Source of the DNA: Fusobacterium ulcerans ATCC 49185
Lineage (GTDB): Bacteria > Fusobacteriota > Fusobacteriia > Fusobacteriales > Fusobacteriaceae
Reading direction: 5' to 3'
Assembly: GCF_900683735.1 (NCBI RefSeq)
Contig: NZ_LR215979.1
Coordinates: forward strand, 2,666,001-2,730,000
DNA length: 64,000 bases
Under the pieces are notes generated by a model. That model ran no database searches. It was not told where the DNA came from and saw only the letters and a program-made list of their open reading frames with translations. The translations under genes and the position numbers were made by a program. Of the stretch, positions 3,343 through 48,877 are shown piece by piece (position 1 is the first letter of the stretch; every line of letters begins with the position of its first letter).

Positions 3343-3371
3343 TTGACTTTTTTAATGAAGTATAGTATTCT
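3343..3371 (+). promoter_or_regulatory. sigma-70 promoter of pilus operon 1
   Basis: TTGACT-N17-TATTCT, with the -10 box about 47 bases before the first GEMM-I aptamer. It matches the placement of the three consensus promoters of the downstream cassettes. Confidence 0.7.
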
Positions 3372-3417
3372 CTAATTAGAAACACCTGCTCAGAAAAACG
3401 ATTCAAAGAGTTTTTAT

Positions 3418-3480
3418 AGCAAAATAATGGAAACATTATGACGCAAAGCTATAGGGCCTATTAAAATGGCAGCCAGTTGC
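3418..3480 (+). ncRNA. c-di-GMP-I riboswitch (GEMM-I), copy 1
   Basis: The conserved GEMM-I core is present: a stem capped by a GAAA tetraloop (ATAATG / CATTAT), then GACGCAAAGC, GGGCCT and GGCAGCCAG, closed by P1 (GCAA at 3419-3422 with TTGC at 3477-3480). The stem sequence differs from copies 3 and 4 by paired changes that keep base pairing. The nucleotide before CAAA is G, which I take to correspond to the ligand-contacting G20 of c-di-GMP-selective members; this alignment should be checked. Controls the operon of subunit, phosphodiesterase, tip protein, usher and chaperone. Confidence 0.93.
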
Positions 3481-3531
3481 AATTCTAAAAAATACAGAAG
3501 CTCTCTGTCTTTTTGTGATTGCACTTTTTTT
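3478..3531 (+). terminator. riboswitch-coupled intrinsic terminator, copy 1
   Basis: TGCAAT and ATTGCA form the base of a hairpin with inner AAAAA/TTTTT and ACAGA/TCTGT pairs, followed by a run of seven T. The TGC of the 5' arm is also the 3' strand of aptamer P1, so aptamer closure and full terminator formation compete; ligand should favour read-through. Confidence 0.85.
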
Positions 3532-3577
3532 ATCTAGATTAAAAATTAAGTTATTTAGAAATTTTGGAGGAAAATTT

Positions 3578-4084
3578 ATGAAAAAAATATTAATTCTTTT
3601 AGGAATATTCATTTCCTCAGTTATTCTCTTTGGAAGTGATAATGAGGCTGCAGTAACTGTTACTGCTGAATTTTTAGCACCTTTAAAAATTGAAGTAGTA
3701 CAAAATGCTGATTTTGGAACTGTTATAGCTCAAGACAATAATACAGTAAAAACAAAAACTGATGGTAAATTAGAAGTTACTGGTAATGGATATGTTACAT
3801 TAAAATGGGCTGATTCAAGTATTGGAACCCCAACTCAGGTTGATTCTTCTCCCCTTAAAGTTATCCTTAGAAATGAAAAAAATTCCAGCAATGAGCTTAT
3901 AGCCTATTTCAAAGTTGGAACTCAACCTAGTGTAAAGAATGATGCAAACTTCATTTTAAAAGAAGGAATTCCTTACACTCTTTTTGTTCCAGGAGAACTT
4001 AGTGTTACATCAAAGACTGCTTCTGGAATTTACAAAGGTTCGATCACTTTCAGAGTTGAATATACTGATGACCCTATGATATAA
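3578..4084 (+). CDS. secreted pilin-like subunit A (DUF4402-like)
   Basis: A 168-aa exported beta-rich protein. I start it at the ATG after GGAGG at 3566-3570; an upstream GTG in frame lies inside the riboswitch terminator. The signal peptide is MKKILILLGIFISSVILFGS. The mature part begins with an alternating hydrophobic strand (EAAVTVTAEFLAPLKIEV), has an N(A)DFG motif, and ends in SGIYKGSITFRVEYTD, the GxYxG...VxY terminal strand shared with the other subunits here. This architecture resembles chaperone-usher subunits and DUF4402 proteins. The role as fibre subunit is inferred from the neighbouring usher and chaperones. First gene of the c-di-GMP-switched operon. Confidence 0.75.
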   Translation: MKKILILLGIFISSVILFGSDNEAAVTVTAEFLAPLKIEVVQNADFGTVIAQDNNTVKTKTDGKLEVTGNGYVTLKWADSSIGTPTQVDSSPLKVILRNEKNSSNELIAYFKVGTQPSVKNDANFILKEGIPYTLFVPGELSVTSKTASGIYKGSITFRVEYTDDPMI

Positions 4085-4187
4085 GCAATACACCTTAAAA
4101 TCATAATTCCAAATTTTTAGTTATAACTTCACTTCACAATATCTTTATAAATAAAAAAATAAAAATAATATAAAAATGGTGGTGCTA

Positions 4188-6302
4188 ATGAAAAAACTAA
4201 TTACAATCTTCTTTATACTTTTTAGTTCTTTTGTCTTTGCAAAAGATTCTTTAACTATAAAGATACCTCTCAACCTTACAGATATGTATCTGTATAAAAA
4301 TTTAGAAACTGGAAAGTATGAAGGTGTTTATGCTGAAGTATTTGAAAAAATTAACACTGAAAAATTAAATTCTAAATATAATTTGGATTATAAATTAGAA
4401 AGTGAAAATCCTGAAGTAATGATAAGGGTTGTTGATTCTTATCAAGATGAACACTATGATTATATTCCTACATCTATTACATACAGGGTAGCTGTTCTAG
4501 TAAAAAACAACAGTAGTATTAGAAAAGTAAGTGATTTAAATGGATTAAAAATTGCTTATATTCCTAATTCTCGTGGTTTGGCAGAATTTGAAGAAAGGTT
4601 TTCAAATATAGTATTTGAAAAAGTTAGTGCTCCAAATGAAGATAAAGGACTGGAATATCTGGAAACTGGAGAAGCTGATGCTTTTATTGCTGTAGATTGG
4701 GCTGAAAGCAACTCTGTTGAAAGTCATATCAGAGTGATAGAATCTCTTCAATATAGAGAACAAATAGCTGTAAGAGAAGATAAAACTGAAATATATAATG
4801 CCATAAAAACTTACATAACTTCCCTACCTTCTTCTAACTTTACAGATATTATAAAAAGAAATAGAATAGATTATTATACTTATCTTTTAAAAGATACTCC
4901 TAATCAAGATATCATAAAAAATAAATTCAAAGAAATAAAGGTACAGCTCCCTAATTCAAAATATATTCTTCCGCTTTTTTATGAAAAAGATGGAAGATAC
5001 AAAGGACTTCTTCCTGAAATATTAAATGACTTGCAAACTATTATTGGAGTTCCTTTTAAAATAACTAAAGATAATGGAGATATAAATGCTTACATTATAA
5101 AAAATCAGAAAAAAACGGAAAAGTATATATTCAGTACTCCATATTATTCAAGTGATATAGGTATAGCAAATAAAAAACTTGATTCATATAGAGCTAGTAT
5201 AAGTGATTTAGACAATAAAAAAGTTCTTGTAGTTGAAAATAGTTATTTTTCTGAATATCTTCCTCAAGTAACTAAAGATATTACTATAATTCCTGTTAAG
5301 TCTGTTCAAGAAGGTCTTAAAAAATTAGCTGCAGGACATGGAGATTACTTTGTAGGATTTTCAAGTGTTATCAGAGGAGCTATAACTAATGAATTCCTTG
5401 ATGATGAGGTTAAAATAGCTGGAACTATAAATGAAAATATGGCTATCAGTCTTGGTGTAAAGAAAAACGAAGAAGAATTAAGTCAACTTGTCAATACAAT
5501 AATGAGAAGTTTCGCAGTTGATAAAACTCTCTCTGACCCTGAAGCTAATAAAAATATTCTTGTAGAAAAGAATTATAAACTTATGATGAAAGTAGCTGTT
5601 CCAACTGTAATTTTTATTATTATATTGATAATAGTTCTTATAAAATCTGAGAAAAATAGAAAAAAAGCTGAAGTCTTAGGTAATGCTTTAGTAGAAACAT
5701 TGGAAATGATAAATCAATTAGACCAGGAAGAAGCTGGAGATCATGCAAAAAGGTTATCTATGTATTCTGAATTACTTGCTGAAAAATCAGGTTTAGACAA
5801 AAAAATAGTATCTGAAATTAGAAAATTTGCTATTCTACATGATTTAGGTAAAGTTATTGTTCCTAATGAAATTTTAAATAAACCTGGAAAATTAACTGCT
5901 GAAGAGTTTAATAAAGTAAAAGAACATGCAATTGTAGGACATAGACTTGCTGAAAAATTAGGATTAGGAAGCGTTGCTGAAAATCTTGTTAAATTCCACC
6001 ATGAAAAATGGAATGGTTTAGGATATCCATTAGGATTAAAAGGAACTGAAATTCCAATCGAAGGAAGAATTGTAGCTTTAGCAGATACTTATGATACATT
6101 AAGACAAGATAAGGCATACAGACCTGGATTTTCACACGAAAAAGCTGTACAGATTATAACTGAGGAAAGTAATATTAGCTTTGATCCTGAATTGGTTAAT
6201 CTTTTCCTAAAAAATAGTGAATTGTTTAAAAAAATCTATGAAGAAAATACAAAATCTATATATCTTGCTGATGAAATCTACTCAGCTATAAAAAATAAAT
6301 AA
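4188..6302 (+). CDS. membrane HD-GYP c-di-GMP phosphodiesterase with two periplasmic SBP_bac_3 sensor domains
   Basis: Predicted sensor enzyme that hydrolyses c-di-GMP. A signal/anchor (MKKLITIFFILFSSFVFA) is followed by two tandem periplasmic solute-binding (SBP_bac_3) domains at about 18-235 and 240-465. A transmembrane helix lies at about 469-488, then a short linker and the HD-GYP domain. Catalytic signatures are intact: LHDLGK with H551/D552, HHEKWNGLGYP at 604-614 (Asn replaces the usual Asp of HHExxDGxGYP) and VALADTYD. I chose the ATG behind GGTGGTG rather than one 12 bases upstream. About 104 bases separate it from subunit A, with no terminator seen. Its ligand is unknown. Being inside a c-di-GMP-activated operon suggests negative feedback (inference). 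Confidence 0.9.
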   Translation: MKKLITIFFILFSSFVFAKDSLTIKIPLNLTDMYLYKNLETGKYEGVYAEVFEKINTEKLNSKYNLDYKLESENPEVMIRVVDSYQDEHYDYIPTSITYRVAVLVKNNSSIRKVSDLNGLKIAYIPNSRGLAEFEERFSNIVFEKVSAPNEDKGLEYLETGEADAFIAVDWAESNSVESHIRVIESLQYREQIAVREDKTEIYNAIKTYITSLPSSNFTDIIKRNRIDYYTYLLKDTPNQDIIKNKFKEIKVQLPNSKYILPLFYEKDGRYKGLLPEILNDLQTIIGVPFKITKDNGDINAYIIKNQKKTEKYIFSTPYYSSDIGIANKKLDSYRASISDLDNKKVLVVENSYFSEYLPQVTKDITIIPVKSVQEGLKKLAAGHGDYFVGFSSVIRGAITNEFLDDEVKIAGTINENMAISLGVKKNEEELSQLVNTIMRSFAVDKTLSDPEANKNILVEKNYKLMMKVAVPTVIFIIILIIVLIKSEKNRKKAEVLGNALVETLEMINQLDQEEAGDHAKRLSMYSELLAEKSGLDKKIVSEIRKFAILHDLGKVIVPNEILNKPGKLTAEEFNKVKEHAIVGHRLAEKLGLGSVAENLVKFHHEKWNGLGYPLGLKGTEIPIEGRIVALADTYDTLRQDKAYRPGFSHEKAVQIITEESNISFDPELVNLFLKNSELFKKIYEENTKSIYLADEIYSAIKNK

Positions 6303-6322
6303 ATACTGCAGAGGTGAATTTT

Positions 6323-7753
6323 TTGAGAAAATATTTATTATTATTGATATTTAATTTTTCTTTGATCTTTAGCTTTAGCAGTACTACTAACGACGTAGAA
6401 AATATTTTTGCTGATGAATTTGGATATCAAAATGAAAAAACTAGTGAGATTCCTGAAACTTTGAATATTCTGCAGGGAATGAGAGTTTCAACCATTGATC
6501 CTGCCATGATAAAAGATAATTATTCTAAAAGGACTATTCCATTGATGTATGATACTCTTTTTACTTTTAATAAGAATGGAGATATAAAACCTTGCCTTGT
6601 TAAAAATTATAAATGGCTGAATGACAGAGAACTCTCTATAGAATTAAAAACTGATATAAAATTTCATGACAAAAGTATTCTTACTGCCAAAGATGTTAAA
6701 GATTCATTAGAATATCTGAAAAAAAATGGAACATTGAAAACTTTTTATTCTGAAATAACAGACATAAAAGTTTTAAACACAAAAGAACTAATAATAAAAA
6801 TTGCTGAAAAAGACAGTCTTTTTTTAACTGCATTGACTTATGAAATTAGTTCTATAGCTAAAAGAAATGAAAAAGGAATAATTGGTACTGGTCCTTTTTC
6901 TATTAAAAGTTTTAATGGAAAAACTTTAAAGTTGGAAAGATTTCCCAATTATTTCAATGGAATTTCCAGTATAAAAAAAGTAAATATTGGAGAAGAAGTT
7001 AATGAAAGTCAAAGACTTATAGCTTTGTTTAATGACAAAGCTAATATTGCTTTAGATGTAACAGAAAAATCTCTAAATAATGCAAAAGAATATGGAATAA
7101 TTGATGATGATGTTGCTGTTGAAAAAAGTGAAGAAACAGAAAGTACTGTTCTTATGTTTGGGAATCAAAAAAATTACTCTATTGAAAGTAGAAAGGCTAT
7201 AGAAAGTGCTGTTCAAAGAACAGCTGACTCTTTTTTTCCTAGTACAATGTTTACTCCCAGACTTTCTAAAGTAAATATTGATTACAACACTTCAAAAGCT
7301 AAAGAAAATATAAATAAAGCAGGATTAAAAAATAAAGAAGTTAATATTATGGTTCTTAATACAAATAATAGTATGGAACAGGCTGAGAAAATAAAAGCCT
7401 CTCTTGAAAAGGCTGGAATGAAAGTAAACCTTCTGCCTCATCAAATAGATTCATACTATATTAAATTTCAGAACAAAGACTTTGATCTTGCTATTTTCAA
7501 TGTTGCATTTAATAGCAATTATACTGTATTTAATCTAGGTAAAGTTCTTCTTTATGATATTGGAGATATGGAAATGTACAATGCTTTACAACCATTTCTC
7601 AAAATAATAAAAGAAGAAAAAGATAAAGAAAAAAGAGATCAAGTATTTGATAAAATAGTTCAACTTATTTATAAAGATCTTCCATATATTCCAATTTCTC
7701 ATGGCAAGACTCTCATAGTAGGAGCTGAAAAATATAAATATATAAAAAGATAA
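6323..7753 (+). CDS. orphan periplasmic solute-binding protein (SBP_bac_5, oligopeptide/nickel type)
   Basis: A 476-aa family-5 extracellular solute-binding protein: N-terminal hydrophobic signal (RKYLLLLIFNFSLIFSF), the STIDPAMIKDNYS opening, then GTGPFSIKSFNGKTLKLERF, a classic SBP_bac_5 stretch. The TTG start fits the AGAGGTG site 6 bases upstream; a GTG nine bases earlier is part of that site. No lipobox is visible and no ABC permease or ATPase gene is nearby, so ordinary uptake is doubtful. It follows the SBP-domain phosphodiesterase by 20 bases and precedes the tip-like protein, so a role as periplasmic co-receptor or ligand scavenger is possible (inference). Confidence 0.8.
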   Translation: MRKYLLLLIFNFSLIFSFSSTTNDVENIFADEFGYQNEKTSEIPETLNILQGMRVSTIDPAMIKDNYSKRTIPLMYDTLFTFNKNGDIKPCLVKNYKWLNDRELSIELKTDIKFHDKSILTAKDVKDSLEYLKKNGTLKTFYSEITDIKVLNTKELIIKIAEKDSLFLTALTYEISSIAKRNEKGIIGTGPFSIKSFNGKTLKLERFPNYFNGISSIKKVNIGEEVNESQRLIALFNDKANIALDVTEKSLNNAKEYGIIDDDVAVEKSEETESTVLMFGNQKNYSIESRKAIESAVQRTADSFFPSTMFTPRLSKVNIDYNTSKAKENINKAGLKNKEVNIMVLNTNNSMEQAEKIKASLEKAGMKVNLLPHQIDSYYIKFQNKDFDLAIFNVAFNSNYTVFNLGKVLLYDIGDMEMYNALQPFLKIIKEEKDKEKRDQVFDKIVQLIYKDLPYIPISHGKTLIVGAEKYKYIKR

Positions 7754-7771: not shown

Positions 7772-8641
7772 TATAAGAGGCTAAAGTTAATAATAGGACT
7801 TATGTTTGTAATATTTTCTTTTTCTTATTCAGGTAATACTGCATTTGATGTTTCAGTAAGAGGAATATACACAAAAGAAGATGTTATAAAAAATCAAACT
7901 CAAATTGTCAATTTTGAAATTAGTGAAGTTACAATAAGAGCTAAAAATAATACTAAAGATACTTTTTTTCAAGTTACAAATATAGAAACTACAAATGAAA
8001 ATTTTATTAATGGGCAAAATTTAAAAATAACAAATATAAATAAAGGTATAGGAAATGAAAATCGCGTTTATTTTAAAGATAATGAAAACAATTCAATTGA
8101 TACCATTAAATTTTCTTTAAAAGGTACTCTTATTTTTAATTGGAAGGAAACTAATAAAAAACCTGACTTAGCAATTGGTTATAGAGGAGAAGAACATCAA
8201 TATAAAAACACTAGTAATTATATAACTGTTGATCTTAGTGATGTAAAGCCAATAACTTTACTGAAAATAAGTGTCAAGGAAGATCTGAATCTTGGAAAAG
8301 GAATAGCTGGTTCTGTTCTTGATACTTCTAATGGCAGTGGTTCTCCTGCAACAGTTGAAGCTACTGGAGAATATGGTAAAAATGTAAAATTTAAAATTCT
8401 AAATCCTGAAAATATAAAAATTACCAGCATTAAAAATTCTCAAGATTCATTAAAAGTTGATGTCTGGTTTGAAAACTCTAATATGAGCAAAACAATTATA
8501 AAAAAATTAAATGAAAATACTAATGAAACTTACACTGGAAAAACATCTGACATTAAAATTCATGGTAGATGTCAATCAAACTCAAATAGTCGTGGAATCT
8601 ATAAAGGAAGTTTTATAGTAAGAGTGGAGTATGATGATTAA
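7769..8641 (+). CDS. two-domain tip-adhesin-like pilus protein
   Basis: About 290 aa if translation starts at the non-canonical ATA, which gives a proper signal peptide (YKRLKLIIGLMFVIFSFSYS); from the first ATG (7802) the N-terminus lacks the basic region. The N-terminal domain (to about 160) has no recognised family. The C-terminal domain (about 160-290) has the subunit pattern: PITLLKISVKEDLNLGKG early and RGIYKGSFIVRVEYDD at the end. An adhesin-like domain joined to a pilin domain, single copy and next to the usher, is the layout of tip adhesins such as CooD/CfaE or FimH. The function is inferred. It overlaps the usher start by 11 bases, suggesting translational coupling. Confidence 0.6.
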   Translation: MYKRLKLIIGLMFVIFSFSYSGNTAFDVSVRGIYTKEDVIKNQTQIVNFEISEVTIRAKNNTKDTFFQVTNIETTNENFINGQNLKITNINKGIGNENRVYFKDNENNSIDTIKFSLKGTLIFNWKETNKKPDLAIGYRGEEHQYKNTSNYITVDLSDVKPITLLKISVKEDLNLGKGIAGSVLDTSNGSGSPATVEATGEYGKNVKFKILNPENIKITSIKNSQDSLKVDVWFENSNMSKTIIKKLNENTNETYTGKTSDIKIHGRCQSNSNSRGIYKGSFIVRVEYDD

Positions 8642-11255
8642 AAAAAGGAAGCTTCTGCTTTCTTTAGTATTTCTTATGCTTGTATCTAAATCTCTTTATT
8701 CAATAGAAAATTATGAAAATTTTGAAGATTCATATATACAAATAAGTGCAAAAAAGATCAAAGATGACTTTTTCATGGTAAAATATGACTATAATAATGA
8801 AGAAGTTTACATAGGAATGAATGCTTTATTTTATTTTATGGAACTTTATGGACTTGAAGTAAATATCAATCAAAAATCCATATCAGGAAAACTTGATGGA
8901 AAAGATTTTAATGTTTCTTTTTCAGATGATGAAGCTTATGTCTTAGATGGAGAACTGTTTGTTAATTCAAAAGCTTTAGAAAAAAAGATGGATTTTACTT
9001 CAATAAAATATGATTTTTCATCTTTGAGATTAACTTTAGAACCAAATTTTATTCTTCCATATGAAGAAAGAGAAAAAGGAAAAGTAGAAAGATTAAGATT
9101 AGACAGCAGAAAAGAAGAGGAAGAAAAAAAAATTGATATTGAAGTTCCCAGAAAACTTATAACTCCTGGATTATTAAAATTAGATTATTCTCAATCTGAT
9201 ATAAAAGGACCTGAGAATCAGCTTTCATATGAATATGCTTCACAATTTCTTTATGGAGAATTATATCTCTCAGGTAGTATAAGACCTGAATCAGAACTTA
9301 CCTATGGTAACCTTACTTATTCTGATATCGTTGGAGATAATGACCTTGTATTAGGTAATTTTTCTCTTATAACACCTAGTTTTTTAAGCATAGACAGTAA
9401 TATTCTAGGAGTAAGTTTTAATAATGAAGAAACATATGTAACAAAAGATGGAGCTATTACAGTTATCAAAGGGGAGGCATTTGATGCTGATATAATTGAA
9501 CTATATAGAAATGGAATGCTATTAAGTTACATAACCCCTCAAACAAAAGATTTTGAATTTAGAATAGATGATGGAATACTTAGTTCTGACTATACATTAA
9601 AAATTTATTATAAAAATGGTGGAATAGAAGAAAGAACTGTCTATTCTCTATCAGATTCTGAATTATTAAAAAAGGGAAGATACAGATTTTCAGCTCAAAG
9701 TGGTAAAAATGCTGATAATGGTGATCCTCAAAGTATTGTAAAAGCTTTTTATGGACTAGCAGATAACCTTACTATAGGAATAAGTGGAAGCGACCTTATA
9801 AGTACTTCTGGAAGAAAGTACAGATTTTTAGAAAATACTTTTTTATGGAGTACAGGTCTTCATAATTTTCCTACTTTAATTAATTATAAAAATTTTTATG
9901 AAATAGAAAAGCAAGAAAATAGCTATAATCTTTCAATAGAACAAAAATTATTTTCATATAATTTAAGATTTACTGAAAATAAATATTCACCATATGTCTA
10001 TGAAGACACAAATTTAAAAAAATATAATTCAATATCTATTGGTAAAAGTTTTGATAGAAACTCTCTTGAATTTGGGCTTAATAGATATATTTATTATGAT
10101 ACTGATATTGAAAGTAAAAATGTATATGGAACATGGTACTCATCAATGCTTAATCCTGTTTCTTTCTCTTTGAGAGCAGAAAAGGAATTAACAAAAGGAA
10201 GTGAAGGGGTTGCATTCTATCCATCTTTTGCTTATTCTGGATTCCAAAGTTTAAATATGATGTTAGATGGGGAAATAAGCAAAAAGAAAAGTGATGATGA
10301 ATATAAACAGGAATACTCATTAAAAATAAATAAAAGAAATATGGAACTAATAAAAGATACTTTATTTGTTGATTTTGGTGTAGAAGCAAAATATTCCAGT
10401 GAAACAGAAAAATTTAGATATGGTATTACTTTCACTGTAGAATTAGACGATTTTATCTACCTTGAAGTTCCAACTGATGTTACAATAGATGAAAACAATA
10501 ATCGTGAAACAACTACAAGTCTTCATGCAAGTAAGATTATCGATCTTAGCAATCCCCTTAGAAAAATTAAAAGCAATGTTTCCATTACTGGAGCTTGGAT
10601 ACATGGTAAAGTATTCCTTGATAAAAATGGAAACGGTATATTTGATGAAGGGGATATTCCTATTCCAGAAGCTGGTGTTATGGTAAATAATAAAACTTTC
10701 ATAGCTGATGAAGATGGAAATTATGTAGCTGAAGGAGTTGTTACTAACGAAGTTATAGATCTTACAATAAACAGAAAAACTATTGACCCTATGATGAAAA
10801 ATTCTAAGGGTGCTTTAAAAATAAAAACAAGAAAATCTTCTGGGCTTAAAGTTGATATCCCTATTGAAGTTGTTTCAATGGTTACAGGAAATATCTGGAA
10901 TACATCTGAATTTACAGAAAGGCAATTTATACAAGCTGTATCTATGACCACTATAGTCCTTGAAAAAGATGGGCAAGTTCAATATGAAGTCGATCCTGAA
11001 TTTGATGGAATGTTCTTCTTTGAAGATATACCACCAGGACAATATAAAATGAAATTCATATATCTTGGTCAGGAAAATTTTGATTTTACTGCTCCTGAAC
11101 TAGATGTTGATGTTACTCTTACAGATACAGAAACTGGAGAGTATTTCGAAGGTTATGACACTCAACTGATGAGAAAAGTTGATGAAGAAGCAACTCAAGA
11201 AACAACAACTGATATGAATGAAGATGAAATAGATGACATCTTAAATAATTACTAA
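8631..11255 (+). CDS. outer-membrane fimbrial usher-like protein (alpha/TcfC-CooC-like)
   Basis: Predicted outer-membrane pore that assembles and secretes the pilus; 874 aa, normal for ushers. Signal peptide ends near SKSLYS. An N-terminal periplasmic domain (about 25-165) with an acidic/basic linker is followed by a long region of alternating beta strands. The usher-type segment ADIIELYRNGMLL...FEFRIDDG...YTLKIYYKNG...LLKKGRYRF begins near residue 285. A carboxypeptidase-regulatory-like fold (GKVFLDKNGNGIFDEGD) starts near 658, and a second beta domain (FFFEDIPPGQYKMKF) near 790; the tail is very acidic. The D-N-G-x-D-G-D element recalls alpha-clade ushers. Remote homology judged by eye; another outer-membrane secretion barrel is the main alternative. 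Confidence 0.75.
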   Translation: MMIKKRKLLLSLVFLMLVSKSLYSIENYENFEDSYIQISAKKIKDDFFMVKYDYNNEEVYIGMNALFYFMELYGLEVNINQKSISGKLDGKDFNVSFSDDEAYVLDGELFVNSKALEKKMDFTSIKYDFSSLRLTLEPNFILPYEEREKGKVERLRLDSRKEEEEKKIDIEVPRKLITPGLLKLDYSQSDIKGPENQLSYEYASQFLYGELYLSGSIRPESELTYGNLTYSDIVGDNDLVLGNFSLITPSFLSIDSNILGVSFNNEETYVTKDGAITVIKGEAFDADIIELYRNGMLLSYITPQTKDFEFRIDDGILSSDYTLKIYYKNGGIEERTVYSLSDSELLKKGRYRFSAQSGKNADNGDPQSIVKAFYGLADNLTIGISGSDLISTSGRKYRFLENTFLWSTGLHNFPTLINYKNFYEIEKQENSYNLSIEQKLFSYNLRFTENKYSPYVYEDTNLKKYNSISIGKSFDRNSLEFGLNRYIYYDTDIESKNVYGTWYSSMLNPVSFSLRAEKELTKGSEGVAFYPSFAYSGFQSLNMMLDGEISKKKSDDEYKQEYSLKINKRNMELIKDTLFVDFGVEAKYSSETEKFRYGITFTVELDDFIYLEVPTDVTIDENNNRETTTSLHASKIIDLSNPLRKIKSNVSITGAWIHGKVFLDKNGNGIFDEGDIPIPEAGVMVNNKTFIADEDGNYVAEGVVTNEVIDLTINRKTIDPMMKNSKGALKIKTRKSSGLKVDIPIEVVSMVTGNIWNTSEFTERQFIQAVSMTTIVLEKDGQVQYEVDPEFDGMFFFEDIPPGQYKMKFIYLGQENFDFTAPELDVDVTLTDTETGEYFEGYDTQLMRKVDEEATQETTTDMNEDEIDDILNNY

Positions 11256-11278: not shown

Positions 11279-12190
11279 TTGAAAAAATCAAAACTATTAA
11301 TGATAATTATGATTTTATGTTTTAGTATATTCGAACTCTCATACTCTGATAACAAAAGGATAGAGAAAATCGAAAATAAACAGATAAAAAATAATATCGT
11401 CTATTTCAAAAATGAATCTGTCCCTTTTACTGGTGAATTCAGAGGTCCTGGCATCAATGAAGAGTATAAATCAGGGATAAGAGATGGATTTTTCAAAGGC
11501 GTTATTTCAGATGAAGGCAAAAGCTTCATCTATGAAGGTAGATATGTGGAGGGAATAAAACATGGTCAATGGGTTATTAAATATCTTACAGGAAGCAATA
11601 GAGCTATTCTTAGATATAACTATGATAAGCCACATGGTCAATGGGCATATTTCTATGAAACTAATAAAATAGAAAGTTATGAAAATTTTGAAGATGGCAT
11701 TCTTTCTGGAAAAGTAGTAAGTTATGATCCAAAAGGAAATGTAAAAACACAAGTAACATACAAAAGTGGACTATTGGATGGAGAAGCTGTCTTCTTCCAT
11801 AGTCCAAGTGTACTAGATACCACAGCTATTTTTTCATATGGAAAACTCAATGGTCCTCTAAAAATGTTTTCTACAGATAATGTCCCACTTATAGAGGGAG
11901 CTTATAAAAATAATAAAAGAGAGAATACTTGGAAATTTTTCTATAAAACAGGGGATATAAAAACTACTGTTACATATAAAAATGGATTAAAAGATGGAAA
12001 AGTCATCATTTATGATAAAGGGGGAGGAATAGTCCTTGTATCTTTATTTAAAAATGGAGATGAAATTGATGATAAGGGAAATGTAATTGAAAAAAATCAA
12101 CCATTTAAAGATGGAATTGTAGAAAGATTTAAAAAATTCAACAGAAATCTAAAATTTGAAAAATATGATAAATTATTATCAGAACTTTAA
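11279..12190 (+). CDS. exported MORN-variant repeat protein (YwqK-like)
   Basis: A 303-aa protein with a signal peptide (KKSKLLMIIMILCFSIFELSYS) and about seven MORN-variant repeats of the pattern Y-x-x-G-x-x-x-G-x-W/x-x-x-Y, such as YVEGIKHGQWVIKY, YDKPHGQWAYFYE, YKSGLLDGEAVFFH and YKNGLKDGKVIIYD. TTG start with an AAGGAGAAG site. It sits 23 bases after the usher and 15 bases before the chaperone, so it is co-expressed with the secretion machinery. No pilus role is known for such repeats; an envelope accessory or stabiliser of the usher is a guess. YwqK antitoxin labels of this family say little about function. Confidence 0.8.
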   Translation: MKKSKLLMIIMILCFSIFELSYSDNKRIEKIENKQIKNNIVYFKNESVPFTGEFRGPGINEEYKSGIRDGFFKGVISDEGKSFIYEGRYVEGIKHGQWVIKYLTGSNRAILRYNYDKPHGQWAYFYETNKIESYENFEDGILSGKVVSYDPKGNVKTQVTYKSGLLDGEAVFFHSPSVLDTTAIFSYGKLNGPLKMFSTDNVPLIEGAYKNNKRENTWKFFYKTGDIKTTVTYKNGLKDGKVIIYDKGGGIVLVSLFKNGDEIDDKGNVIEKNQPFKDGIVERFKKFNRNLKFEKYDKLLSEL

Positions 12191-12205: not shown

Positions 12206-12946
12206 GTGAAAAAAATATTTGTATTTTTTATGACTTTTATCATTGGAATCAATTTATATGCCCTTAATTTTTCTGTAGCTCCTACAAGTTTTAAAGTTGA
12301 ACTTAAAAAACCTGTAACTCAGGAAGTGTATATAATCAATAATACTCCTGCTCCTTTAAGAATAGAAACACATTTGGAAGCTGCTGATTCTTTTGAAAAT
12401 TTTAATTTAAATAATGATATCACTGTTTTTCCTAAAATGATATCTATCAAACCTGGTGCTAAACAAACTATAAGATTCAGAATAAAACCCAACCCAGAAA
12501 TGAAAGATGGTGAATACAGAAGTTTATTAATATTTAAAGAAGTTCCCAAAGAAATAAAAACTGTAATCACTGATAATCAAAATAATAAGGGATTATCTAC
12601 AGAACTTACTTTTATTACAGAAGTAGCAATAGGTGTGTCAGGTATTAAGGGAAAACCTGTAATTGATGGTACAGTACAAGATGTAAAAGCAACTTATGCT
12701 GGAAAAGTTCTTTCTCTTCAATGTAATACTATTTCAAAAGGTAATACTGCTATGAGAATAAACTATATATTAGAAAATGAAAATGGTAATATTATTTCTG
12801 AAGGAAGATTTGGAACAAGTGCAAGATCTGGTGAAAAAAAACTTTTCACTAATATAGAAATTCCTGAATTAAAAGCAAAAAAAATAAAGCTTATATTAAA
12901 AAATCAAGATAATAAAATTATTTATGCTGGAACAAATTCTTTATAA
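12206..12946 (+). CDS. periplasmic pilus chaperone 1 (PapD-like)
   Basis: Predicted periplasmic chaperone that caps pilus subunits before delivery to the usher; 246 aa. Signal peptide to LYA, then the mature start LNFSVAPTSFKVEL shared with three paralogues downstream. The PapD N-domain pattern is clear: VYIINNTPAPLRIE, then FPKMISIKPGAKQTIRFRIK near residues 90-110 and GEYRSLLIFKE. GTG start behind AGAGGTG. It is the most diverged of the four copies at its C-terminus, fitting service to the operon-1 subunits. Last gene of operon 1. Confidence 0.87.
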   Translation: MKKIFVFFMTFIIGINLYALNFSVAPTSFKVELKKPVTQEVYIINNTPAPLRIETHLEAADSFENFNLNNDITVFPKMISIKPGAKQTIRFRIKPNPEMKDGEYRSLLIFKEVPKEIKTVITDNQNNKGLSTELTFITEVAIGVSGIKGKPVIDGTVQDVKATYAGKVLSLQCNTISKGNTAMRINYILENENGNIISEGRFGTSARSGEKKLFTNIEIPELKAKKIKLILKNQDNKIIYAGTNSL

Positions 12947-12961
12947 GATTAAACATAGAGG

Positions 12962-12988
12962 GAAGGGGAAAATAATCTCCTTCTTTTT
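12962..12988 (+). terminator. intrinsic terminator of pilus operon 1
   Basis: GAAGGGGA / TCTCCTTC hairpin followed by TTTTTATTTTT, 15 bases after the chaperone stop. Confidence 0.75.
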
Positions 12989-13099
12989 ATTTTTATGTTC
13001 AGTTTTATATCTCTGACTTTTTTAATTCACTTTCCAGTCCTGCTATCATAAAACTTCTTTTATTCGTATTTTTATAAGGTTTTTATTAAAAATATTTTG

Positions 13100-13128
13100 T
13101 TGACATACATTAATTATTAATGTATAAT
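13100..13128 (+). promoter_or_regulatory. consensus sigma-70 promoter, cassette B
   Basis: Exact TTGACA-N17-TATAAT, with the -10 box 35 bases before the aptamer. Such a strong promoter implies that control lies in the riboswitch rather than at initiation. Confidence 0.9.
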
Positions 13129-13162
13129 TATATTACATAAAACAAGTATATTTTAATTTCTT

Positions 13163-13224
13163 GGCAAAGTAATGGAAACATTATGACGCAAAGCTATAGG
13201 GCCTGTTAAATGGCAGCCAGTTGC
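13163..13224 (+). ncRNA. c-di-GMP-I riboswitch (GEMM-I), copy 2
   Basis: Same core as copy 1: GAAA-capped stem (TAATG / CATTA), GACGCAAAGC, GGGCCT, GGCAGCCAG, closed by GCAA (13164-13167) and TTGC (13221-13224). Precedes subunit B. Confidence 0.94.
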
Positions 13225-13281
13225 AATTATTATAAAAAATATGATTTCATAATCGTGTTTTTATATAATAATTGCATTTTT
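13222..13281 (+). terminator. riboswitch-coupled terminator, copy 2
   Basis: TGCAATTATTATA pairs with TATAATAATTGCA (one bulged base pair allowed) and is followed by TTTTT. Its first bases are the P1 3' strand of the aptamer, the arrangement of a ligand-ON switch. Confidence 0.88.
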
Positions 13282-14826: not shown

Positions 14827-14854
14827 ACAGTAAAGAAGTATATATTAAATATTT

Positions 14855-14916
14855 GGCAAAATAACAGAAATGTTATGACGCAAAGCTATAGGGCCTGTTA
14901 AATGGCAGCCAGTTGC
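14855..14916 (+). ncRNA. c-di-GMP-I riboswitch (GEMM-I), copy 3
   Basis: The core is identical to copy 2 from GACGCAAAGC through GGCAGCCAGTTGC, but the tetraloop stem is TAACA / TGTTA instead of TAATG / CATTA: two positions changed on both strands with pairing kept. P1 is GCAA (14856-14859) with TTGC (14913-14916). Confidence 0.94.
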
Positions 14917-14975
14917 AATTATTTTTAAAGATGCAAGTAATTCTATCCTTACACTTTAATAATAATTGCTTTTTT
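14914..14975 (+). terminator. riboswitch-coupled terminator, copy 3
   Basis: GCAATTATTTTTAAAG pairs with CTTTAATAATAATTGC (minor mismatches) and is followed by TTTTTT; the 5' arm begins in the P1 3' strand. Confidence 0.87.
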
Positions 14976-16567: not shown

Positions 16568-16594
16568 ATATTAAAGAAGTATATATTATAATTT

Positions 16595-16656
16595 AGCAAA
16601 ATAACAGAAATGTTATGACGCAAAGCTATAGGGCCTGTTAAATGGCAGCCAGTTGC
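16595..16656 (+). ncRNA. c-di-GMP-I riboswitch (GEMM-I), copy 4
   Basis: Nearly identical to copy 3, including the TAACA / TGTTA tetraloop stem, and therefore probably the most recent duplicate. P1 is GCAA (16596-16599) with TTGC (16653-16656). Confidence 0.94.
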
Positions 16657-16708
16657 AATTATTTTTAAAAGTGTTATTTTTTGCACTTTAATAATAGTTG
16701 CTTTTTTT
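16654..16708 (+). terminator. riboswitch-coupled terminator, copy 4
   Basis: GCAATTATTTTTAAAAGTG pairs with CACTTTAATAATAGTTGC (one G-U pair and minor bulge), followed by TTTTTT; overlaps the P1 3' strand like the other copies. Confidence 0.87.
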
Positions 16709-18136: not shown

Positions 18137-18169
18137 AAGACTGTTCTTGAAGAGCAGTCTTTCTTTTTT
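18137..18169 (+). terminator. intrinsic terminator of cassette D
   Basis: AAGACTG / CAGTCTT hairpin followed by TCTTTTTT. Confidence 0.82.
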
Positions 18170-18200
18170 AAAATAAACTCTTCAAATCGTATTTTTCAGT

Positions 18201-18229
18201 TTGACAATATCTGATTTTGGGGATATACT
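18201..18229 (+). promoter_or_regulatory. sigma-70 promoter of the GGDEF gene
   Basis: TTGACA-N17-TATACT. The 85-base leader to the start codon holds no GEMM aptamer and no terminator, so cyclase synthesis is not under the same switch. Confidence 0.85.
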
Positions 18230-18313: not shown

Positions 18314-19891
18314 ATGTACAATGCAGCTTTAAAAATTTTGTACCCTGACAACTCTCATATTGATACAGCAATGAATAACTTAAAAACGAGAGAAAATTTT
18401 AGTTATGATTTAATCAAATATCATGATTTAAAAGATGAAGATATTGAAAAAGCTGGTATTCTTTTAGTTCTTCATTCTGATGGCTATGAAGCAGAAAAAT
18501 TAAAAAAACTTATGAAAACTAATACAATATTAATCTATATCCTAGAGCATAGTATTCTCACTTCTAATGATGCTCTTTTTAATTTTGCAGATGATATCTG
18601 GTTTTCTTCACTATCTGAAAATGAAATACTATTTAGAATGGAAAAAATAGTTGATGGAGTAAAGCTGAAAAAAGATAAAAATCTAGCTGAAAATTATCTT
18701 AACACACTAATAAATAGTATTCCTGATATGGTATGGTTTAAAGATAACAGAGGTATTCATCTAAAAGTTAATGACGCTTTTTGTAATATCATAGGAAAAT
18801 CAAGGGAAAAAATAGAGGGACAGGATCACTTCACTATCTGGGATATTCCAAGGCCTGAGTATGAAAAAGGTGGATATATCTGTATGGAAAGTGAGGAAGA
18901 TGTTCGTAAAGCTGGAAAGACTATTTTATTATATGAAAAAGTAAAAAATAGAAATGGATTCCGTCGTCTGAATACATATAAATCTCCTTTATATGATGAA
19001 GATGGAGAGATGATGGGAACTGTAGGAATAGCCCATGACATCACTGATTTAGAAAATATTGATATAGAGCTGCAGCTTATTATCAATACTATGCAGTTTG
19101 CAATATTGATTTGCAATAATAATGGTGAAATAATCAATGTTAATAATAAGTTTGTTGAATATTTTAATATTGAAAAAGATGTTATTGTTAAACATAACTA
19201 CAGAAATTGGTTAAAAGAAAGTTTAACTTTAGTTACTACAACAGATAAAAATGGATGTTTTGAATGTAATAATCAAAAAAATTCAAAGCTTCAGATATTA
19301 AGTTGTCATGAAAAAATAATTTTAGATACATTCCAGAAAGAAATAGGAAAATTGTGTATTTTCCGTGATATAACTAAAGAAAGAGAATTAGAAAGCAAAC
19401 TCATTCATACTTCTAATACTGATTATCTCACTGGATTATACAATCGTCGTTACTTATATGAATATATAAAGCACTTTAAAAAAGTCAATCAAATCACTAT
19501 TTTATATATGGATCTTGATAATTTTAAATCTATAAATGATATATATGGACATCAAGTGGGAGATGAAATATTAGTACTTACCTCATCTATTCTTAAAAAA
19601 ATTTTTCCAGAAGATTTAATAGCTCGTATTGGAGGAGATGAATTTCTCATAGTTTCATTGGGAGAATGGGATATAGAAAAAATAATGGATAAAGCTTCTC
19701 TTGTAATCAAAGACTTGAAAGAAGCTTACATAAATAAAACTAACTTCATTCATTTGAGTTCAAGTATAGGTATAACTACAGCTTATAACAAAGTTATTGA
19801 CTTAGACAAACTTATCAAACAAAGTGATGTAGCTCTCTATGAAGCAAAAAGAAGAGGAAAATCACAAATTTATTTCTTACCATTTGAATAA
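18314..19891 (+). CDS. PAS-GGDEF diguanylate cyclase
   Basis: Predicted cytoplasmic enzyme making c-di-GMP from two GTP; 525 aa. Residues 1-115 look like a degenerate receiver-type domain. A PAS domain with PAC follows at about 130-250 (SIPDMVWFKDNRG...GTVGIAHDITD), a second PAS-like domain at about 255-365, and GGDEF at about 375-525. The catalytic GGDEF at 440-444 is intact, with the TDYLTGLYNRRYL and YMDLDNFKSINDIYGHQVGD signatures. The RxxD inhibitory site is replaced by FPED (431-434), so product inhibition through the I-site is unlikely. No membrane segment. Its place at the end of the riboswitch-controlled pilus locus suggests that it supplies the ligand (inference). Confidence 0.92.
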   Translation: MYNAALKILYPDNSHIDTAMNNLKTRENFSYDLIKYHDLKDEDIEKAGILLVLHSDGYEAEKLKKLMKTNTILIYILEHSILTSNDALFNFADDIWFSSLSENEILFRMEKIVDGVKLKKDKNLAENYLNTLINSIPDMVWFKDNRGIHLKVNDAFCNIIGKSREKIEGQDHFTIWDIPRPEYEKGGYICMESEEDVRKAGKTILLYEKVKNRNGFRRLNTYKSPLYDEDGEMMGTVGIAHDITDLENIDIELQLIINTMQFAILICNNNGEIINVNNKFVEYFNIEKDVIVKHNYRNWLKESLTLVTTTDKNGCFECNNQKNSKLQILSCHEKIILDTFQKEIGKLCIFRDITKERELESKLIHTSNTDYLTGLYNRRYLYEYIKHFKKVNQITILYMDLDNFKSINDIYGHQVGDEILVLTSSILKKIFPEDLIARIGGDEFLIVSLGEWDIEKIMDKASLVIKDLKEAYINKTNFIHLSSSIGITTAYNKVIDLDKLIKQSDVALYEAKRRGKSQIYFLPFE

Positions 19892-48762: not shown

Positions 48763-48813
48763 AAAAAAAGCTGATGAATCTGCATAACAAAAAAATGCAG
48801 AAGTCATCAGCTT
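48763..48813 (-). terminator. riboswitch-coupled terminator of the antiporter
   Basis: On the minus strand AAGCTGATGA pairs with TCATCAGCTT and TCTGCAT with ATGCAGA, followed by seven T. The 5' arm is the 3' part of the fluoride aptamer (GCTGATGA), so ligand binding should block terminator formation. Confidence 0.88.
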
Positions 48814-48858
48814 ATAAGCGGTTTTTGTGTTGTCACAAAGGGAGAACCTCATTCCCAA
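48797..48858 (-). ncRNA. fluoride riboswitch (crcB motif)
   Basis: On the minus strand the crcB pattern is complete: GGGAATGAGGTTCTCCC, a variable hairpin (TTTGTGACAACACAAA), AACCGC, a short loop, then GCTGATGACTTCTGC. These match the family consensus GAUGxxGUUCNCC ... AACCGC ... CUGAUGACUCCUxC closely. It lies between a promoter and the antiporter gene and overlaps a terminator: an ON switch. Confidence 0.92.
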
Positions 48859-48877
48859 AGTATTAAATTTTCAATTT

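Follow-up and report, generated by a model that had tools for sequence, protein, structure and literature searches.

Organization of the riboswitch 1 operon

The DNA analyzed here, referred to as the window, is a stretch of 64,000 nucleotides (nt) of Fusobacterium ulcerans ATCC 49185 (G000:C1:2666001-2730000, from a single-contig genome of 3.84 Mb), in which the gene of a predicted HD-GYP phosphodiesterase lies behind riboswitch 1, a c-di-GMP-I riboswitch, in an operon of fimbrial-type genes. A preliminary description of this DNA had proposed that, if the switch is turned ON by cyclic di-GMP (c-di-GMP), the rising messenger would induce its own destroyer, and this proposal is examined here within the window and across 61 genomes of the same family as F. 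ulcerans (G000 among the genome handles). The features at the head of the operon are as follows.

3343..3371, + strand: promoter of riboswitch 1, TTGACT-17-TATTCT (9/12 in a consensus scan, a weak match alone)
3408..3484, + strand: aptamer of c-di-GMP-I riboswitch 1, with A at position 20 (RF01051, 58.6 bits)
3478..3531, + strand: intrinsic terminator, predicted ON-type expression platform (stem 3478-3523, U-run 3525-3531, folding free energy (dG) -13.0)
3578..4084, + strand: fimbrial-subunit-like protein, DUF4402 (Pfam E 8e-5, 23.7 bits, below the cut-off of 25.2)
4188..6302, + strand: predicted protein of two Venus-flytrap domains, a membrane segment and an HD-GYP phosphodiesterase domain (HD_5, E=2.2e-30)
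6314..7753, + strand: orphan SBP_bac_5 (NikA/Opp-like) substrate-binding protein (Pfam E 1.7e-32)

Riboswitch 1 spans positions 1-87 of the RF01051 model and scores well above the gathering score of 35 bits, which places it in this riboswitch family; the genome holds four RF01051 matches, every one of them inside the window and on the + strand. The stem of its terminator is followed by one C and then seven T, and the terminator rule used tolerates a C between the stem and the U-run. The first seven bases of the terminator are the final seven of the aptamer, including the expected ligand-pairing C (C92, in the aptamer numbering of PMC9049102, assigned to RF01051 column 83 by this analysis), and because these 7 nt are common to both, the predicted aptamer and terminator structures are mutually exclusive. 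The full leader is predicted to fold to the terminator at -29.7 kcal/mol, and to reach -24.6 kcal/mol with the terminator 3′ arm blocked. Additionally, an alignment with the three nearest relatives shows conservation of the promoter block, whose -35 box begins at 3343, of a large part of the leader and of the terminator arms.

The HD-GYP protein and its sensory domains

As the preliminary description had it, the HD-GYP gene is the second after riboswitch 1: its open reading frame (ORF) opens at 4176, ends at 6302 and follows the subunit gene, and the start at 4188 is probable because most orthologues begin at that Met. Residues are counted here from 4176, in which numbering the pair previously given as H551/D552 is H555/D556. 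The product is the only HD_5 protein of the genome, and among solved structures its best match is 4mcw (E 6.5e-39), followed by 5z7c, an enzyme specific for cyclic GMP-AMP (cGAMP). Orthologues, defined as full-length proteins of at least 41% identity (41-100% observed), occur at 21 places in 20 genomes, and the residues H523, H555, D556, H584, H608, H609 and D637 are invariant in 20/20 of them, with E or D four positions before H523 likewise in 20/20. We take these residues to be the HD-GYP metal ligands, on the basis of the HD-GYP literature and of the 4mcw alignment. With the HD_5 match, the metal ligands and the HHE-GYP motif all found, the protein appears from its sequence to be a c-di-GMP phosphodiesterase in which every metal-ligand residue is present.

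The two periplasmic solute-binding domains previously ascribed to the enzyme were recovered by different routes. The second (residues 271-453) passes the Pfam cut-off as SBP_bac_3, a match also found in 20/20 orthologues, and the first, for which the window protein gives no separate family match, can be aligned to it by profile across 186 columns (hhalign probability 96.6%, E 5e-10); both lie ahead of the membrane segment, which was read from sequence. For the adjoining SBP_bac_5 protein the nickel and oligopeptide models of NCBIfam remained below cut-off, and its gene has no permease or ATPase gene adjoining it within the operon in the Pfam annotation. The flytraps, together with a binding protein that has neither permease nor ATPase, suggest gating from outside, and control of the enzyme by an external ligand is therefore plausible.

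The HD-GYP protein might instead act mainly as a ligand sensor, or by interacting with the fibre machinery, and scarcely change cellular c-di-GMP. Its fixed position in the fimbrial operon beside the orphan binding protein would suit such a role, and so would the presence of further probable phosphodiesterases, since the genome holds 16 GGDEF matches and eight EAL matches (one a fragment), and the seven full EAL-domain genes probably also degrade c-di-GMP, so that the HD-GYP enzyme is not the sole c-di-GMP sink of the cell. However, the catalytic residues are kept in all 20 orthologues, as is expected only if catalysis matters, and we consider this alternative unlikely.

Conservation of the arrangement across the family

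Among the 61 genomes, 17 of the 21 full-length orthologues stand behind a riboswitch, either in first place, at nine loci in genus g4 (G014, G027, G062-G067 and G069), or in second place after a subunit gene, at eight (G000-G003, G005, G010, G011 and G074). The terminator overlaps the aptamer in 17/17 of these linked orthologues, by at least 6 nt in 16 and by 4 nt in G005, and the SBP_bac_5 gene comes next after the phosphodiesterase gene in all 17. Eleven of the loci were read further, and a second subunit, an 870-aa (amino acid) protein, a MORN protein and a chaperone follow in the same order in 11/11, where the chaperone of G074 lies past the contig end and the second subunit was left unlabelled by the search in two. 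As read from these genomes, the joint placement of riboswitch and phosphodiesterase is conserved across related genera and is not a local accident.

The family sample of riboswitches comprises 143 matches above the cut-off, from 36 of the 61 genomes, after one sub-threshold match was dropped. An HD-GYP gene lies within the first three co-directional genes behind 29 of these 143, and directly first behind 18, while a GGDEF gene is first behind eight and six have an EAL gene among their first three. By a rough estimate, which takes about 128 matches to the HD-GYP protein in the 36 genomes and about 90,000 genes, the latter figure estimated from genome sizes, fewer than one HD-GYP linkage is expected by chance; the 29 linked riboswitches are not independent because of shared descent. 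Several of the 29 involve HD-GYP genes of other groups (g5, g13 and g14), and there the terminator mostly starts past the aptamer.

Further arrangements were seen in the same sample. In G010 and G011 another HD-containing protein, of 352 aa, is encoded directly upstream of the riboswitch operon (L084 82-1140 and L085 99-1157). In G066 (L148, C1:1012958 and 1015100) a GGDEF gene stands behind one riboswitch and an EAL gene behind another shortly after it, so that the two sides of c-di-GMP turnover have a switch each, and in G062 (L132, C57) the second switch heads a subunit-like gene instead of the EAL gene. In G079, G082 and G084 (L181 G079:C3:967476/967644, L191 G082:C1:553405/553571 and L157 G084:C428) a single very long ORF is preceded by c-di-GMP-I riboswitches in tandem, with a spacing of about 166 nt; this ORF exceeds 1270 aa in G079 and G082, where the end of the locus was reached, and is cut shorter in G084.

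Probable ligand of riboswitch 1

Among the ligand-contact bases, the equivalents of A47 and C92 are present, and position 20 is A or G depending on the switch: A in riboswitches 1 and 4 of the window, and G in riboswitches 2 and 3. Across the family, position 20 is G in 125, A in 14 and C in four (n=143), and in the 17 switches linked to the phosphodiesterase it is A in G000, G005 and G065 and G in the other 14. We regard c-di-GMP as the likely ligand of riboswitch 1.

The A20 of riboswitches 1 and 4 raises the alternative that the switch senses 3′,3′-cGAMP, or both dinucleotides, and that the HD-GYP protein might be a cGAMP phosphodiesterase. In a Geobacter aptamer, replacing A20 by G20 was described to change the preference from cGAMP to c-di-GMP (PMC6456294), and the second-best solved relative of the HD-GYP protein, 5z7c, is the cGAMP-specific enzyme mentioned above. 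However, the best solved relative is 4mcw rather than that enzyme, the orthologous switch carries G in 14/17, and cGAMP riboswitches are described as able to bind c-di-GMP (PMC9262584). Moreover, the GGDEF motif could be resolved in nine of the 16 matches of the genome, and all nine carry Asp and none the Ser of the cGAMP-making Hypr enzymes; the other seven, mostly GGDEF-EAL fusions, escaped the motif pattern. Taken together, a cGAMP-sensing system is improbable here.

Predicted co-transcription of the phosphodiesterase gene

No convincing terminator was predicted between 3531 and 12955, and the intervening hairpins fall in coding sequence. The phosphodiesterase could nevertheless be only loosely co-regulated, with an internal promoter, or the gap ahead of its gene, decoupling its level from the switch in this species. 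That gap is 91-103 bp in G000 and 69-103 bp in G001-G003, is AT-rich with weak promoter-like matches, and holds a hairpin in G002 and a hairpin with a T-run in G036. Against such decoupling, the consensus scan found no strong promoter in the gap, the corresponding distance shrinks to only 15-29 bp in G005, G010, G011 and G074, and in the nine g4 loci the phosphodiesterase gene is itself first after the switch, so that co-transcription in the group would not depend on the gap at 4084-4188. We therefore give decoupling only a small probability.

Sign of the switch

In all four window switches the terminator consumes the aptamer 3′ end, including the putative ligand-pairing base. When strong overlap is defined as dG <= -7 kcal/mol with at least 6 aptamer nt inside the terminator, it is found in 98 of the 143 family riboswitches, compared with 8/143 after the downstream 110 nt were dinucleotide-shuffled (one shuffle per riboswitch), and RF01051 column 83 is paired by the terminator in 97 of the 101 cases that span it. 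In the 98 overlapping riboswitches, which were chosen for pairing so that the weight rests on the swap and shuffle controls, pairing of the terminator 3′ arm with its own 5′ arm surpasses the median obtained with arms swapped in from other loci in 98/98 (means of -12.1 for own versus -4.6 for swapped arms), and at columns 85-87 the pair types are highly variable with pairing mostly retained.

The predicted layout of riboswitch 1, in which the same bases serve aptamer and terminator, is that of a published transcriptional ON switch, the pilM GEMM-I riboswitch of Geobacter metallireducens, wherein aptamer and terminator are exclusive and the ligand-pairing C is sequestered, whereas in the Cd1 OFF switch the two structures co-exist (PMC9262584). 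The condition that the preliminary description had left open, namely whether the switch is ON, is thus answered in the affirmative by the predicted layout, in the four window switches as in most switches of the family. An OFF switch, by which c-di-GMP would repress the phosphodiesterase and create positive feedback and bistability, is very improbable. In its favor, OFF-type c-di-GMP-I riboswitches such as Cd1 do exist, and the HD-GYP switches of the sister genera g13 and g5 have terminators starting beyond the aptamer. Against it, the terminator 5′ arm enters the aptamer 3′ end in the window as well as in each of the 17 linked orthologues, and for these the OFF reading was rejected, the g13 and g5 switches being left aside.

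Other genes of the operon and neighboring features

The remainder of the operon, in order, is as follows.

7802..8641, + strand: large fimbrial-subunit-like protein, DUF4402 (Pfam E 2.8e-4, 22.0 bits, below the cut-off of 25.2)
8631..11255, + strand: putative outer-membrane usher-like protein, 874 aa (position and size only)
11279..12190, + strand: MORN_2 repeat protein (Pfam E 6.7e-11)
12206..12946, + strand: PapD-like pilus chaperone (PapD_N, E 3.8e-6, above cut-off)
12955..12990, + strand: end-of-operon terminator

Of the two hallmarks of a chaperone-usher operon, the PapD-like chaperone was found and the usher was not: the 874-aa protein has no usher match (PF00577 or related) in Pfam, NCBIfam or PDB, and eight aligned homologues including it matched no usher model and no solved relative. 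It is therefore labelled usher-like by position alone, and is possibly a divergent usher family. It is conserved at 39-91% in seven aligned relatives, and the MORN_2 repeat protein succeeds it in 11/11 operons examined.

Downstream of the operon lie three further riboswitches and a cyclase gene.

13153..13228, + strand: riboswitch 2, G20, ahead of a subunit and chaperone pair (RF01051, 57.9 bits)
14845..14920, + strand: riboswitch 3, G20, ahead of a subunit and chaperone pair (RF01051, 60 bits)
16585..16660, + strand: riboswitch 4, A20, ahead of a subunit and chaperone pair (RF01051, 56.5 bits)
18137..18229, + strand: terminator (18137-18161) and near-consensus promoter (18201-18229) insulating the cyclase from riboswitch 4
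18314..19891, + strand: PAS-GGDEF diguanylate cyclase with its own promoter (GGDEF, E 7.5e-34)

Perfect TTGACA-17-TATAAT promoters at 13100, 14798 and 16539 precede riboswitches 2-4, compared with the weaker one of riboswitch 1, and given these promoter strengths the subunit and chaperone pairs may be produced at higher levels than the main operon. The cyclase stands outside riboswitch control, as had been claimed for it, because it has a terminator and a promoter of its own, and a hairpin occupies the corresponding gap before the cyclase in the five relatives examined (G002, G003, G005, G010 and G011). Elsewhere in the window a fluoride riboswitch lies on the - strand at 48791-48865 (47.4 bits versus a gathering score of 34).

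Discussion

Based on these findings, we propose a self-limiting fimbrial operon, composed of an ON riboswitch, an HD-GYP brake and an insulated cyclase as input, and we hold this reading, drawn from sequence, to be probable. First, when ligand is absent, the nascent RNA would close the terminator ahead of the first gene by using the last bases of the aptamer, the ligand-pairing C among them. Upon c-di-GMP binding, these bases would be locked in the aptamer, no terminator would form, and the polymerase would read into the fimbrial operon. Rising c-di-GMP would thus produce read-through, the fibre genes and the phosphodiesterase would be expressed together, and c-di-GMP would fall, a negative feedback carried by one gene. 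The insulated cyclase and the other GGDEF proteins would be the inputs and the EAL proteins the probable parallel sinks, while the flytraps, probably together with the orphan SBP_bac_5 protein encoded alongside, would likely set the strength of the brake.

The preliminary description had expected pulses or a set point from this loop. A single negative loop with an independent cyclase input would damp, speed the response and set a level, and for pulses to arise a longer delay or a further loop would be required; therefore the negative feedback and the set point, which is the likelier outcome, are retained, and the pulses are not. That description had overlooked the A20 of riboswitch 1, the SBP_bac_5 orphan as a partner, the conservation of the arrangement and the seven full EAL-domain genes.

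Several observations weigh against the proposed self-limiting operon. Position 20 of riboswitch 1, a specificity position, is A and not G, and a G20 mutation in Vc2 is cited in a Vibrio paper as causing a 30,000-fold loss (PMC4744006), although G11A/C in Cd1, described as a similar position, had no large effect (PMC9262584). No riboswitch was detected ahead of four of the 21 orthologues (G073, G075 twice and G036), and a relaxed-threshold search upstream of G073, one G075 copy and G036 found none. The hairpin and T-run of G036, and the weaker hairpin of G002, stand between the subunit and phosphodiesterase genes. Strong terminator overlap is missing from 45 of the 143 family riboswitches, and several non-overlapping g13 and g5 switches, with a terminator starting 7-9 nt past the aptamer, precede other HD-GYP genes. 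A competing P1 helix is unsupported, as its own pairing beat the median swap in only 41/98, so that the mutual exclusion rests on the terminator side. Finally, the seven full EAL-domain genes could swamp the feedback loop.

Parts of the proposed self-limiting operon resemble known systems. The HD-GYP phosphodiesterase PmGH (4mcw) shares the catalytic domain and all metal-ligand positions with the window protein, but its sensory part differs and only the HD-GYP part was matched. The flytrap domain of the HD-GYP protein matches that of the BvgS Venus-flytrap sensor (4q0c); BvgS carries two flytraps in tandem ahead of the membrane and, unlike the HD-GYP protein, has a histidine kinase output. The pilM riboswitch, although alike in layout, senses cGAMP, and the part of its description drawn on here names no messenger phosphodiesterase (PMC9262584). 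In Vibrio cholerae, VpsT-vpvABC is likewise a case of a c-di-GMP effector governing a c-di-GMP turnover gene, but with a protein effector, a diguanylate cyclase and positive feedback (PMC8754643). In Clostridioides difficile, c-di-GMP riboswitches likewise control surface and adhesion genes, and such riboswitches are reviewed as seldom controlling c-di-GMP metabolic genes (PMC6200980, PMC6366702). A 2025 review notes that GEMM precedes some of the genes for cyclases and phosphodiesterases (PMC12564702), so that riboswitch control of turnover genes is not new as an idea. Among openly licensed PMC papers, none describing this operon was found by title or abstract opening.

A broader reading, which we put forward tentatively and hold to be somewhat doubtful, is that of a conserved family module, wherein a c-di-GMP ON riboswitch would drive the fibre genes along with a double-flytrap HD-GYP phosphodiesterase and the always neighboring SBP_bac_5 protein, and the latter would report to the flytraps an outside ligand that decides on self-shutdown of the operon through destruction of its inducer. 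Genus g4, with the brake first behind the switch, would be its clearest case, and in the window A20 would lower the affinity for c-di-GMP and so adjust the set point.

In conclusion, a whole bacterial family places HD-GYP genes behind c-di-GMP riboswitches, and a compact operon with a candidate outside signal thereby offers a direct test of whether a riboswitch can control a second messenger in a closed loop.

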